From the NCBI GenBank assembly GCA_029940345.1, contig JAOZRC010000050.1:1-15128 (forward strand): a stretch of DNA of 15,128 nucleotides, written 5' to 3'. The translations under genes were made by a program, and so were the position numbers. Below, one piece after another: positions 1,666-14,469 of the stretch (the stretch's first letter is position 1; every line of letters begins with the position of its first letter). Under the pieces are notes generated by a model. The model was not told where the DNA came from. It did no database searches and saw nothing but the letters and a program-made list of their open reading frames with translations. Source of the stretch: Desulfobacterales bacterium (GTDB lineage Bacteria; Desulfobacterota; Desulfobacteria; Desulfobacterales; JAUCGF01).

Positions 1666-4600
1666 CTAGGCCGTTTCCCATTCGATTTCTAATTCACGAT
1701 GCTTCGGGAACCCCGTACCAGCAGGTATTGTACGCCCCATAATGACATTTTCCTTCAAACCTCTGAGGTGATCCTTTTTCCCGGCAATACTGGCCTCGGT
1801 TAGCACTTTGGTTGTTTCCTGAAAGGAAGCCGCTGATATAAAACTGTCTGTGCTTAAAGATGCTTTGGTGATTCCTAAAATCAATGGCTCGGCAGTGGCC
1901 GGTTTGCCTCCTTCGGCACTTATAGCCATGTTCACATTTCTGAAATTAAGTTTATCAACCTGTTCTTCGGTGATAAAATCAGTATCGCCAGGATCGGTCA
2001 CTTTAGCCCGCCGCATCATCTGACGGACAATGACTTCAATATGTTTATCGTTAATTTGAACACCTTGCAGCCGGTAAACTTCCTGCACCTCATCCACTAA
2101 ATATTGGGCGAGTTCGATTTCACCCTTAATATTCAAAACATCCTGCGGATTAGCGGAACCACCGATAAGCGGGTCACCTGCACGAACGTAATCGCCTTCA
2201 TAAACACTGATATGCTTCCCACGAGGAATTAAATATTCCTTTTTCTCTCCGACCTCGTCGACCGGCGTTACAACCACTTTTTGTTTCCCTTTTTTAGTTG
2301 TTTTAGGGATGGAAATGTAACCGTCAATTTCAGTCAGAACCGCCAATTCTTTAGGTTTACGAACTTCAAAAAGTTCTGCCACACGCGGAAGGCCGCCTGT
2401 GATATCCTTTGTTTTAGTAGTCGCCCGTGGAAGCTTGGCTAAAATATCCCCGCCTTTTACCATTTCACCTTCGTCCACTAAAAGGATGGCATCAATTGGT
2501 AAAAAATTACGCGCCACTCCGACTCCGCCAGGAAGTGAGATGGTATTGCCCGACTCATCTTTAATGGAAATACGCGGCCTGTCATCAACATTTTTGGATT
2601 CGATAATCGTTCGACTGGCTTTTCCAGTCACCGGATCAACTTTGTAATCCATCGTCCGTTTATCAATGATATCTCCGAATTTCACAAACCCATCCACTTC
2701 ACTTAAAATGGGAGTCGTGAAAGGATCCCATACAGCTAATAAATCATCGACAGCAACCGTGTCACCGTCCTCAACAGCAAGATGGGCTCCGTAAATCACT
2801 TGGAACCGCTCTCGTTCACGCCCGGAAGCACTGATAATAGAAAATTCACCGCCCTGACGATTCATTACTACAATTTCATTTGCATCATTTTTGGCTATAT
2901 GTAAATCAATAAACTGAATCGTTCCCTCAGAACGGGCTTTTATATCTGCCTGTTCAACCCTTCGGCTTGCCGTTCCACCGATATGAAACGTGCGCATCGT
3001 CAATTGGGTTCCAGGTTCGCCAATCGATTGCGCCGCCAATATTCCGACAGCCTGACCGATCTCAATAGGAGCGCCGTGCGCCAAATCACGGCCATAACAG
3101 CTCGAACATACGCCGTTATCCGTTTGGCAAGTCAGCACAGATCGAATTTTAGCACTGGTAATATTAGCCTTTTCAATTCTTTCAACAGCGTCTTCATCAA
3201 TTTCTCTGCCGGTTGCAACAAGGCATTCATCGGTATACGGATCGCGTATATCTTCATTGGTTATTCGTCCCAATATGCGATCTCCGAGTCGTTGAATAAT
3301 CTCGCCGCCTTCCATAAGCGGTTCAACTTTAATACCTCGCTGAGTTCCGCAATCTTCTTCAAGTATGGTGCAGTCCTGTGCGACATCAGCCAAACGGCGT
3401 GTTAAATAACCCGAATTGGCGGTTTTTAACGCGGTGTCAGCGAGTCCTTTACGAGCGCCGTGCGTGGATATAAAATATTGTAAAACGGAAAGGCCTTCTC
3501 TGAAATTAGCCTGAATCGGCGTTTCGATTATCTCGCCGGAAGGTTTGGCCATCAATCCACGCATACCGGCAAGTTGGCGCATCTGATCTTTACTGCCCCG
3601 AGCGCCTGAGTCCGCCATCATATAAATCGGATTAAAGCTTTCTTCATAAACAGGCCGCCCGTTCTCATCATTTAGCGAGTTTCCATGCTTATCTTTAACA
3701 AGCGCGTTTTTCATTGAATCCATCATCGCCTCGGCCACTTCATCCGTAGCTTTGGCCCAGATATCCACAACTTTATTATACTTCTCACCCGGTGTGATCA
3801 GACCATCATTGTACTGAGCATCGATTTTTTTAACCTGTATCTCCGCTGCCTTGCATATTTCCCATTTAGACGGCGGAACAATCATGGCATCTATAGAAAT
3901 AGACAATCCGCCTTCAGTGGAATAGCGATAACCGATATTCTTGAGTCGGTCAGCCATCATCACCGTAGCTTTCGGCCCTAAATTACGATACGCATAGTCA
4001 ATCAACTTGCGAATAGATCCCTTATCTTGTACTTTGTTCACAATCTCAAAAGGCATACCGGACCGTTTGTCGATAACCTTAAAAATATGCCAGGCGTTAT
4101 CTACATAAACTTCACAACTGATACCGTTCACGGGTAGCGAGAAAACTGTTTCCGCTTCGGCTTTACGTGCGCCGAACTGCTCTATGAATTCATCTGTGTT
4201 AAGCCATCCGATAAGGTCGCTTCGATTGTCCGGAGCATCGCTTTCTTTAAGATCAAGTTCTTGCGATTCCACATTCCGATTTAACGCTTCGGTTGACAGA
4301 TCATCAAAATTCGCCCCCGCGTGCAACCGCTCTGAAAATTCATGCGCTTCATCTCTATCGGAAGCGACAATACGTTTCAGCTTCAATATATTATTTTCAG
4401 GAATAATTTCCCACAACAAAACACGCCCAACGGTGGTTTCTACGATTTTATCTTTGATGCGAACCCGTATCGCCGCGTGCAGGTCCGCAGCTCCGGCGTT
4501 ATAAGCGGAACGCACTTCATCAAAATCAGCAAAAAGTTTACCAGAACCGTGCGCATTTCTAATTGAACGCGTCATATAGTATGTACCTAAAACGATATCC

Positions 4601-6111
4601 TGACTCGGTACGATGATGGGGCTTCCACTCGCCGGAGATAGGATATTATTACTGGAAAGCATCAAAATACGCGCTTCTATTTGCGCTTCAACCGAGAGCG
4701 GAATGTGGATCGCCATCTGGTCGCCATCAAAGTCGGCATTAAAGGCCGTACAGACCAGTGGGTGCAATTGCATGGCTTTGCCTTCAATAAGAATGGGTTC
4801 GAATGCCTGAAATCCCAAGCGATGAAGTGTTGGCGCCCGATTGAGCATTACCGGATATTCTCGGACAACTTCGTCTAGCGTATCCCAGACTTCGGGTTCT
4901 TCCCGTTCAACCATTCGCTTTGCACTTTTGACTGTTGAAACAAGTCCTTTTTTTTCCAGAAGGTAATATACAAAAGGCTTAAATAATTCCAGCGCGATTT
5001 TTTTAGGCAGACCGCATTGATGAAGTCGGAGTTCGGGACCGACTGTAACAACGGTTCTGCCGGAATAATCCACCCGTTTTCCTAGTAAATTTTGACGAAA
5101 GCGTCCCTGTTTGCCTTTAAGTGTATCACTTAAAGATTTTAAAGGCCTTTTATTCGTGCCTGTAATGGTTCGACCATGACGTCCGTTGTCAAACAAAACA
5201 TCAACGGCTTCCTGGAGCATCCGTTTTTCGTTGCGCACAATAATATCAGGCGCTTTCAATTCGATCAGCCGTTTTAAACGATTATTCCGATTAATTACCC
5301 TGCGGTATAGATCATTAAGGTCCGATGTCGCAAACCGTCCGCCTTCAAGGGGAACCAATGGCCGCAAGTCCGGCGGCAGAACCGGAACCACTTCCAAGAC
5401 CATCCAGGTCGGATCAATTCCAGAACGGCGAAAAGCATCAATAATTCTCAAACGTTTTGAAAATTTTTGTCTTTTAGCGACCGAACCCGTCTTTTTAATG
5501 TCAATTTTCAGTTTTTTATATTCGGCTTCCAAATCAATTCGGGATAACATCTCCCTGATCGCTTCAGCGCCGATGCCAAATTCAAAGGCCGGTCCGTATC
5601 GGTCAACCGCATCCTGATATTGTTCGGGAGAAAGGAGTTGTCCGTAACTCAGATCGGTGTCCTTCGGATCCAATATGATATAACAGTCAAAATAAAGAAC
5701 TTTTTCAATATTTTTTAATGAAATATCAAGTAAATTACAAATTTTACTAGGAAGGCTTTTTAAAAACCAGATATGTGCGCAAGGGGTCGCCAATTCAATA
5801 TGCGCCATGCGTTCGCGGCGCACTTTAGACTGAATGACTTCCACACCGCATTTTTCGCAAATAACACCACGGTGCTTCATACGTTTATATTTACCACAAT
5901 TGCATTCATAGTCCTTGGTCGGTCCGAAAATTTTAGCGCAAAAAAGCCCGTCACGTTCGGGTTTGAAAGTCCGATAATTGATTGTTTCCGGCTTTTTTAT
6001 CTCACCATGCGACCATTTCAGAATCGTTTCTGGAGAGGCTAATGCTACTTGAACGCCACTATAAAGCTTGGGATTCGTCGGTTTTGCGAAAAAATCGTAT
6101 ACTGTTTCCAA
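1666..6111 (-). CDS. rpoC: RNA polymerase subunit beta' with a parvulin-like insertion
   Basis: RpoC forms the active site and clamp of RNA polymerase. The 1481-residue product has all core signatures: first zinc site C70/C72/C85/C88, the catalytic loop NADFDGDQM with Mg-binding D460, D462 and D464, second zinc site C921/C995/C1002/C1005, and the trigger loop [10 protein letters not shown] with H1043. An SI3-like insertion (about residues 1050-1237) interrupts the trigger loop, as in Gram-negative lineages. Zinc site 1 and the NADFDGD loop align to E. coli with no offset. Zinc site 2 and the trigger loop are shifted by exactly 107, so a net 107 residues are inserted between 464 and 921, located at about 571-686 (separate entry). 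The start is TTG at 6109-6111, with GGAG 7 nt upstream; the next in-frame Met is residue 78, inside the zinc domain. It lies 52 nt after rpoB, so the two are presumably co-transcribed. Confidence 0.98.
4060..4392 (-). other. Parvulin/PpiC-like domain inserted in RpoC (residues about 574-684)
   Basis: The segment lies between [11 protein letters not shown] (562-572) and MPFEIVNK (686-693), which are adjacent in E. coli beta'. Within it, [20 protein letters not shown] (587-606) matches the parvulin pattern of an A-E-x-L helix followed by G-a-d-F-a-x-L-A. Next, SDLIGWL (631-637) matches G-D-L-G-W-f, and FSLPVNGIS (657-665) matches f-x-l-k-x-G-e-I-S. Finally [10 protein letters not shown] (674-683) matches the closing G-y-H-I-i-K-v-x-x-x-R strand. 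The order and spacing are those of the Rotamase/PpiC family (PrsA, SurA, PpiD). The late His (H675) is kept, but the early active-site His of the 'HIL' strand appears to be Arg (R580), so catalysis is doubtful. The recognition is by eye; a profile search was not possible. Confidence 0.75.
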
Positions 6112-10575: not shown

Positions 10576-10614
<39 letters not shown>

Positions 10615-10619
10615 GAAAA

Positions 10620-10685
10620 GAAGTGTGAAGTTTAAAGGTCAATGCCCGATTTGAAAGCCTTAACATTTAAATCACTTCACACTTC
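10620..10685. repeat. Perfect 12-bp inverted repeat in the rplL-rpoB spacer
   Basis: GAAGTGTGAAGT (10620-10631) is the exact reverse complement of ACTTCACACTTC (10674-10685), with a 42-nt gap. Each arm is a heptamer near-dimer (GAAGTGT-GAAGTTT; ACTTCAC-ACTTCAA). In RNA it would form a hairpin between rplL and rpoB, where E. coli has its attenuator and RNase III site. There is no T-run, so a processing or stability role is one inference and a mere repeat relic another. Confidence 0.7.
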
Positions 10686-13884: not shown

Positions 13885-14298
13885 TTAATTACTATGAAGA
13901 ACCAATCGAATAATGCCGGCCAATCCGGAATCAATAAAAAAAAGGAACAATGAAATCAGCAACACAAGAATAATAACTACTGTTGATGATCCCATCGTCT
14001 GTTTTCGCGATGGCCACGTCACTTTTTTTAGCTCTATTTTCACTTCACGCAGAAACTGGACTGACAAATCAAGATAGCCCAAAATTTTGCCCCGGTCAAC
14101 ACTACCAGGTTTCTTGGATTGCGGTTTGATTTTAGAGATAGGCAATTTTTTCTTTAAAACGGTGCCGGAATCCGAAAATTGATTGATGCGCTTAACCTCA
14201 CCAGTACCCTTTTCATGCGAGGAAGCAAGCTTGGTTTCGTTTTTTTTCTTTCTTTTTCTTATCCCAGCAGATGTTTTTTTTCTTTGTAATCGGCCCAT
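13885..14298 (-). CDS. secE: Preprotein translocase subunit SecE with long basic N-terminus
   Basis: SecE clamps SecY in the inner-membrane SecYEG channel. The family core is at the C-terminus: FLREVKIELKKVTWPSRKQT at about 82-101, an amphipathic helix and the conserved Pro-Ser hinge, then one membrane span rich in Val, Ile and Leu (about 106-130). The 137-residue form is long for a single-span SecE (often 60-75). The extra length is a Lys/Arg-rich, probably disordered N-terminus starting MGRLQRKKTSAGIRKRKKKN. I chose the ATG at 14296-14298. The frame extends to 14346, but that would read through the spacer hairpin and the added residues do not look like SecE. The ribosome-binding site is weak (GAG about 8 nt upstream). 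Confidence 0.93.
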   Translation of the reverse strand: MGRLQRKKTSAGIRKRKKKNETKLASSHEKGTGEVKRINQFSDSGTVLKKKLPISKIKPQSKKPGSVDRGKILGYLDLSVQFLREVKIELKKVTWPSRKQTMGSSTVVIILVLLISLFLFFIDSGLAGIIRLVLHSN

Positions 14299-14317
14299 TA
14301 TATTCTCGTTGGAAAAA

Positions 14318-14382
14318 GAAATTGGAAATTGACCTGGAGTTGACACGACCGCGTCAACTCCCTTTTTTCAATTTCCAATTTA
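14318..14382. repeat. Two-tier inverted repeat between tRNA-Trp and secE
   Basis: AAATTGGAAATTGA (14319-14332) is the exact reverse complement of TCAATTTCCAATTT (14368-14381). Inside it, GGAGTTGAC (14336-14344) pairs exactly with GTCAACTCC (14353-14361) around an 8-nt loop. The outer arms are heptamer dimers (GAAATTG x2). In the minus-strand transcript the structure begins 11 nt after the tRNA CCA end and is followed by CTTTTTCC, then the secE start. It may be an attenuator or a processing hairpin separating tRNA from mRNA. Confidence 0.75.
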
Positions 14383-14392
14383 CTTTCCAGTA

Positions 14393-14469
14393 TGGCAGGC
14401 CAGGAGGGATTCGAACCCCCAGCACTCGGATTTGGAGTCCGATGCTCTACCAATTAGAGCTACTGGCCT
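14393..14469 (-). tRNA. trpT: tRNA-Trp (anticodon CCA)
   Basis: A full 77-nt cloverleaf with encoded CCA. The acceptor stem is AGGCCAG/CTGGCCT. The D arm is GCTC/GAGC with loop TAATTGGTA. The anticodon stem TCGGA/TCCGA encloses CTCCAAA, giving anticodon CCA for UGG codons. The T arm is GGGGG/CCCTC with TTCGAAT. The discriminator is G, as expected for bacterial tryptophan tRNA. Its place between tuf and secE is a widely conserved gene order. It is probably cut from a transcript that includes secE, since only 94 nt separate them. Confidence 0.97.

Follow-up and report, generated by a model that had tools for sequence, protein, structure and literature searches.

A parvulin-like domain in the pore domain of the RNA polymerase beta' subunit of Desulfobacterales: position, distribution and possible role

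Lineage-specific insertions in the beta' subunit of bacterial RNA polymerase are treated in a survey of 2024 (PMC11515920), the main text of which names HABAS domains as the type of most insertions, besides BEAN and sLC, counts the middle of beta'-bD4 among seven insertion places, and argues that insertion into the polymerase largely stopped early. The trigger-loop insertion SI3 is, according to the literature, of the HABAS type. Archaeal and eukaryotic polymerases carry an additional small subunit at the largest subunit: in the relevant parts of the respective publications, Rpo8 is placed in an external crevice formed by residues 507-596 of archaeal Rpo1N (PMC2675907), and Rpb8 is stated to contact chiefly the Pore 1 domain (PMC13257274). 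Concerning the secondary channel, the C-terminal domains of GreA and GreB are said to resemble FKBPs, at least in the section on these factors in PMC7461557.

The window, i.e., the whole stretch of 15,128 nucleotides analysed here, contains an rpoC gene, which is the single rpoC match obtained in a search of its genome (G000). The following features are situated in this gene:

1666..6111, minus strand: rpoC, encoding the RNA polymerase beta' subunit of 1481 aa (TIGR02386, 1732.6 bits; listed start TTG)
4060..4398, minus strand: parvulin-like insert, RpoC residues 572-684 (113 residues), between P571 and G685
4240..4281, minus strand: extra loop within the insert, around residues 611-624 according to alignments (boundaries approximate), beyond the usual insert of 100 aa
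4720..4734, minus strand: catalytic DFDGD motif of beta' with D460, D462, and D464, in E. coli register and used as host landmark
2407..2973, minus strand: stretch between MRTFHIGG and DITGGLP, regarded here as SI3, the insertion of the trigger loop; present besides the parvulin-like insert and used as negative control

In alignments to solved beta' chains, the best-matching chain has its residue 584 opposite P571, and G685 is paired with E. coli residue 586; E. coli possesses two residues at the site where the window has 113. In the comparison with the best-matching chain, around 13 residues are fewer just upstream of the insert and 8 are more downstream, and together with the insert this roughly explains the net register shift of 107. 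The extra stretch in RpoC had been claimed in an earlier note made from the letters of the window, and it is real: DFDGD begins at residue 460, in accordance with an E. coli register up to D464, and C921 is present within DCGT at 920. Its limits, given there as about residues 574-684, had to be extended to residue 572, by which the segment becomes six bases longer. In E. coli, the counterpart of C921 is C814.

The insert splits the pore domain of Pfam (Rpb1 domain 3, PF04983), which is matched in two stretches; the better one comprises positions 1-82 of the 162 profile positions and ends at RpoC residue 574. The insertion point in the alignments to beta' chains bears out the location in the pore part of beta' proposed in the earlier note, and by linear position the insert appears to have one half of beta'-uD3 on either side and to fall within beta'-bD4 or at its end. 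In E. coli, residues 615-626 constitute ppGpp site 1 and residues from about 650 to 700 the rim helices, to which Gre and DksA bind; these sites are situated 30 to 120 residues beyond the insertion site. Some inserts possess long extra loops, with 127 residues in L166 (G239) and 129 residues in L011 (G232) as compared to around 100 usually; L011 is a copy from the genus of the window, and its loop is longer than that of the window.

Concerning the identity of the insert, the copy of the window taken alone yields a weak signal. A slice of 134 aa reaches 27.5 bits against PF13145 (cut-off 27.0), the whole protein is under this cut-off with 21.9 bits, and the slice is below the cut-off for PF00639 (15.8 bits vs. 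21.7) and for PF13616, whereas E is 1.4e-6 against the PrsA model NF002827 and 6e-5 against the PrsA structure 6vj4. It is the related inserts that settle the relationship at the level of sequence profiles: among 34 aligned members, the window copy included, 33 match PF00639, 33 match PF13145, and 31 match PF13616 at E<=0.01 (best 7e-13). Searched against PDB sequences, the profile of these 34 members finds PrsA (6vj4, 2.8e-14), followed by SurA, by the PpiC/Par10 type, and by Pin1. When PF00639 alone was run, blind to rpoC, over 40 genomes of the order, 21 of them gave matches above the cut-off in frames of rpoC size, the window not being among them. In a large protein set, precomputed rotamase domains of Pfam are found on 35 of 38 relatives of a typical insert and on none of the 4 proteins related to the insert of the window itself. 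The four parvulin motifs quoted in the earlier note were all recovered in the order claimed, and its assignment to a parvulin-type domain, for which a match to a rotamase family had been expected, agrees with these profiles.

With parvulins (PrsA, SurA, PpiD, PpiC/Par10, Pin1; PF00639, PF13145, PF13616), the insert thus has in common a profile match over the whole domain, conserved Gly and Phe residues, and both His positions, and with PrsA and small stand-alone parvulins also a short first loop. It differs from them in its situation within a polymerase subunit, in the replacement of the pocket Met by Phe and of Cys/Asp, and in a 6-residue extra stretch ahead of the last strands; the window copy, furthermore, is without the first His. 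Equally to the lineage-specific insertions described (HABAS, i.e., SI3 and its relatives, BEAN, and sLC), it is a beta'-inserted domain inherited with a lineage, whereas by sequence profile its fold would be another one than those named in the main text of the survey (PMC11515920). Early insertion and later cessation are reported there, whereas the parvulin-like insert appears to belong to a single order and to postdate its first splits. Rpb8/Rpo8 is similar as an extra small domain on what is, by linear position, the corresponding stretch of the pore domain of the largest subunit; Rpb8, however, is a separate subunit with an OB fold, whereas the insert is parvulin-like and covalently linked. 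The FKBP-like C-terminal domain of GreA/GreB and DksA, for which PPIase activity is reported in a section of PMC7461557, adjoin the same channel, but are separate factors.

With the window slice as query, matches were obtained in 250 of the 291 genomes of the window's order, a large group of sulfate reducers which, judging from named relatives, is Desulfobacterales. Across a sample of the phylum, a mapping already suggested in the earlier note, 7 of 198 genomes match; besides the window these are six others, all belonging to its order. When 20 listed genomes out of the 41 non-matching ones of the order were searched with RpoC including the flanks, 7 turned out to have an insert-less RpoC, 2 carry diverged inserts, 1 gave an edge fragment, and 10 are without an RpoC match. 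In a set of 30 genomes, 19 were already known to bear the insert and 11 had shown earlier weak matches only; among the latter, G312 has an RpoC without insert, and 10 have no RpoC match. A pattern from the host flank was applied to named genomes (84,980 species) and gave 170 relatives, 80 of which were kept. Titles of 78 of these are Desulfobacterales-type or deltaproteobacterial, and the remaining two are a Thermodesulfobacteriota bacterium and a Proteobacteria bacterium; since the pattern was taken from the host flank, independent cases in other phyla may exist. Among the relatives are the named strain Desulfatitalea alkaliphila M08but and Desulfococcaceae bacterium HSG9.

Outside the order, exactly 2 residues are present at the site in all 27 aligned RpoC sequences, which were drawn from 54 outside-order genomes with an RpoC match; the inserts themselves measure around 100 residues in most cases, and 113 in the window. 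A maximum likelihood tree of RpoC (quick search, LG+G4, 104 rows including 9 of the outgroup, insert columns omitted) requires four changes in presence or absence of the insert. We read these as one gain (node 97), after the families f136 and f83 had split off, and as losses in f95, in f98, and in G312. In both f136 and f83 the site is 2 residues long, as in the outgroup, whereas 6, 9, and 7 residues were left in f95, f98, and G312, respectively, and the remnant of the latter, RDNIKRP, preserves both insert ends of its congeners. It is for these scars that the three insert-less cases are considered losses, as change counts alone do not separate gain from loss. The insert is accordingly an old feature of the order that is passed on together with rpoC, retained in most cases, and dispensable. 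Almost certainly, a whole parvulin-type (PpiC/rotamase) domain of around 100 residues was inserted once into the beta' pore domain early in Desulfobacterales, was inherited with rpoC, and was lost at least three times. The rpoC of G312 (L276) constitutes a natural, near-exact deletion, and its sampled congeners in the tree (L005, L018, L022) retain the insert.

Concerning the origin, a tree combining 30 of the 87 collected inserts with 47 same-order parvulin domains gave no resolution (29/84 for the split between inserts and parvulins). Among the parvulins compared, L261 matches the insert profile best (59.0 bits; the next reaches 48.3 bits), and it stems from G202, a basal genome without insert; as a lead only, its family is a possible donor. 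Stand-alone parvulin frames of about insert size also exist in the order (L256-L260, 97-111 aa).

As to the role of the insert, our preferred reading, to which we give slightly less than an even chance, is that of a surface knob beside the secondary channel whose reshaped groove docks a partner, isomerisation having been weakened or lost in many species; for this mechanism and the above identity taken together, the chances are about even. The domain would fold as a knob that projects from the outside of the pore domain, adjoining the secondary channel, and given a size of 100 residues it should be exposed there. It would occupy the stretch at which archaeal and eukaryotic polymerases dock Rpb8, an equivalence suggested by domain tables and linear position. 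The reshaped parvulin groove would then provide a docking surface for a partner with access to the secondary channel or to the enzyme's shelf side, be it a protein factor or, while the polymerase is being assembled, a nascent subunit, and prolyl isomerisation may have been weakened or lost in many species, including that of the window. By analogy, the FKBP-like C-terminal domains of the Gre factors suggest that PPIase-like folds recur around this channel. Docking cannot be essential, since the insert evolves fast and was lost three times.

Both active-site His positions of parvulins can be located in the window:

4372..4374, minus strand: R580, at the position of the first active-site His, which is His in 62 of 87 inserts
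4087..4089, minus strand: H675, at the position of the second active-site His, which is His in 65 of 87 inserts

The loss of the early His, from which the earlier note had argued for binding or altered catalysis, holds for the window, which combines R580 with H675, but not for the lineage: L011 of the same genus has both His, as have 57 of the 87 inserts, and neither is left in 17. With His retained in L011 and at the first position in most inserts, loss of catalysis is not arguable for the lineage from R580 alone. Changes commoner than this type of His loss are the replacement of Met by Phe in the pocket and the loss of Cys/Asp. With the columns assigned after the residues of Pin1, the equivalent of F134 is Phe in 75 of 87 inserts; at the M130 equivalent, 70 inserts have Phe and 2 have Met, while the Cys/Asp position contains no Cys and three Asp (3 rows gapped). 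For comparison, 47 control parvulins were used, namely those among 52 fetched parvulin loci whose match to the insert profile is sufficiently long and scores at least 24 bits (L003, L263, L264, L265, L273, L275, and short second matches being left out), a set biased toward insert-like parvulins since weaker matches were omitted. In the same columns, these possess the first His in 37, the second His in 37, Phe at F134 in 37, and Met at M130 in 36 cases; at the Cys/Asp position, Gly is commonest (19), followed by Cys (15) and with Asp in 4, such that even among the control parvulins not all carry Cys or Asp here. The signature of an active PPIase, Cys/Asp plus a Met-Phe proline pocket, is not characteristic of the 87 inserts. 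Two other positions are characteristic of the inserts: Glu precedes the pocket Phe in 75 of 87 (parvulins: Gln in 19 and Glu in 8 of 47), and Phe stands two positions past the second His in 86 of 87 (parvulins: Ile in 34 and Phe in 8 of 47). This gives the impression of a groove that was retained and remodelled instead of decaying at random.

These counts bear on a reading by which many species would possess, in the insert, a built-in prolyl isomerase that works, with prolines of beta' and beta during assembly, or those of bound transcription factors, as its clients. The 57 inserts with both His speak for it and count against docking, as pure docking needs neither. It would also be in line with the aggregation of RpoB, RpoC, and RpoA in E. 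coli lacking six cytoplasmic PPIases and with the co-purification of NusG, Rho, and RpoA with E. coli PpiC, both described in the part of PMC7353009 on these proteins, as well as with the activity of DksA, a secondary-channel factor, which is reported to be weak in the corresponding section of PMC7461557. Nevertheless, we regard it as rather unlikely, and favour docking over catalysis, in view of the Phe in place of the pocket Met, the near absence of Cys and Asp, the inserts that lack both His, R580 in the window itself, and the loss of the domain from several lineages.

Concerning selection, dN/dS of the insert ranged from 0.05 to 0.57 in the 13 of 14 pairs giving a value and that of the flanks from 0.02 to 0.17 in 14 pairs, some dS values being near saturation, and in 12 of 13 pairs the insert had the greater value. 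Purifying selection acts on the insert, mostly less strongly than on the flanks. Such relaxation, together with three independent losses leaving scars and with a beta'-bD4 length that varies from 46 to 91 residues among the representatives in Table 2 of the survey (PMC11515920), would be expected of a spacer or neutral passenger, i.e., of an old insertion in a tolerant surface loop that remains foldable because misfolding would harm beta', and whose groove is without function. This, too, seems unlikely to us, as the insert was matched in most genomes of the order, has kept a length of around 100 residues in most cases, and exhibits the insert-specific residues before the pocket Phe and after the second His.

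Unlikely as well is a built-in proline switch, by which species with both His would isomerise a proline of the polymerase or of a secondary-channel factor, tuning assembly, pausing, or factor exchange, while in the lineage of the window the enzyme would have become a binding domain. Pin1 and Ess1 act on the tail of RNA polymerase II, and such a switch, if true, would be their bacterial in-cis counterpart.

Since HABAS domains make up most lineage-specific beta' insertions in the 2024 survey, as far as its main text goes (PMC11515920), the segment might also be one of the usual insertion folds (HABAS/SBHM or BEAN) with a chance likeness to parvulins. In a single hhalign comparison, however, the 87 inserts and the 47 same-order parvulin domains, a set favouring insert-like parvulins, gave a probability of 99.7% (E 1.1e-25), and the single sequence of the window still reached 94.6% against parvulin domains, whereas the inserts gave 0.2% against the SI3 stretch, represented by 60 of the 167 rows extracted from the same proteins, by which HABAS is covered, and 0.3% against the following pore segment. 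An SI3-like fold, the sandwich-barrel hybrid considered as alternative in the earlier note, is not supported at the sequence level, and with the matches of Pfam and PDB profiles to parvulins a chance likeness becomes very improbable. An assembly artefact or recent chimera, conceivable for a contig from a draft genome of 1024 contigs, is refuted by the recurrence of the insert at the same site, in frame, and with similar length across many independent assemblies, some of them single-contig, and in protein sets of other origin.

A replacement of Gre or DksA by the insert was considered and rejected, since both families occur alike in insert-bearing and insert-less genomes: GreA/GreB matches exist in 12 of 13 genomes, being absent from the insert-less G311, and DksA/TraR zinc-finger matches likewise in 12 of 13, being absent from the insert-bearing G232.

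In-frame, absent from the 27 outgroup sequences, and inherited with its lineage, the segment behaves as lineage-specific beta' insertions do, and by its profiles it appears to be one with a fold undescribed for such insertions in the literature examined. Neither "parvulin" nor "prolyl" is used in the main texts of the 2024 survey (PMC11515920) and of a 2026 survey on domain insertions, and among the titles and beginnings of abstracts listed from 5.39 million open papers, none describes a parvulin in RNA polymerase, although the older surveys PubMed 15194191 and 19895820 may mention one. Set against the picture of the 2024 survey, a domain of the folding-helper type would have been gained inside one bacterial order and naturally deleted several times. 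Polymerases with and without the insert exist in close relatives (e.g., G072 and G312 of one genus), which makes its role directly testable, and the case bears on the reason why PPIase-like folds appear around the secondary channel. As to annotation, fragments of rpoC may be labelled peptidylprolyl isomerase; the public rpoC fragment P0025 bears this name, presumably owing to the parvulin-like insert.

In the remaining part of the window, short repeats (GAACATCGAACATCGAA) and an inverted repeat are situated at 10576-10685 between rplL and rpoB. The listed rpoB frame from 10666 crosses these repeats, and the true start is therefore probably a later ATG ahead of SAKPMAVRR. Between nusG and a tRNA gene, a SecE-like frame (judged by eye) is found at 13885-14346 on the minus strand, with a long, lysine-rich N-terminal extension of around 90 residues, provided that translation indeed begins at the listed GTG. 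The tRNA gene itself (14396-14469, minus strand), the sole Rfam match of the window at the gathering threshold, lies upstream of the run secE-nusG-rplKAJL-rpoBC-rpsL-rpsG (gene names by eye).
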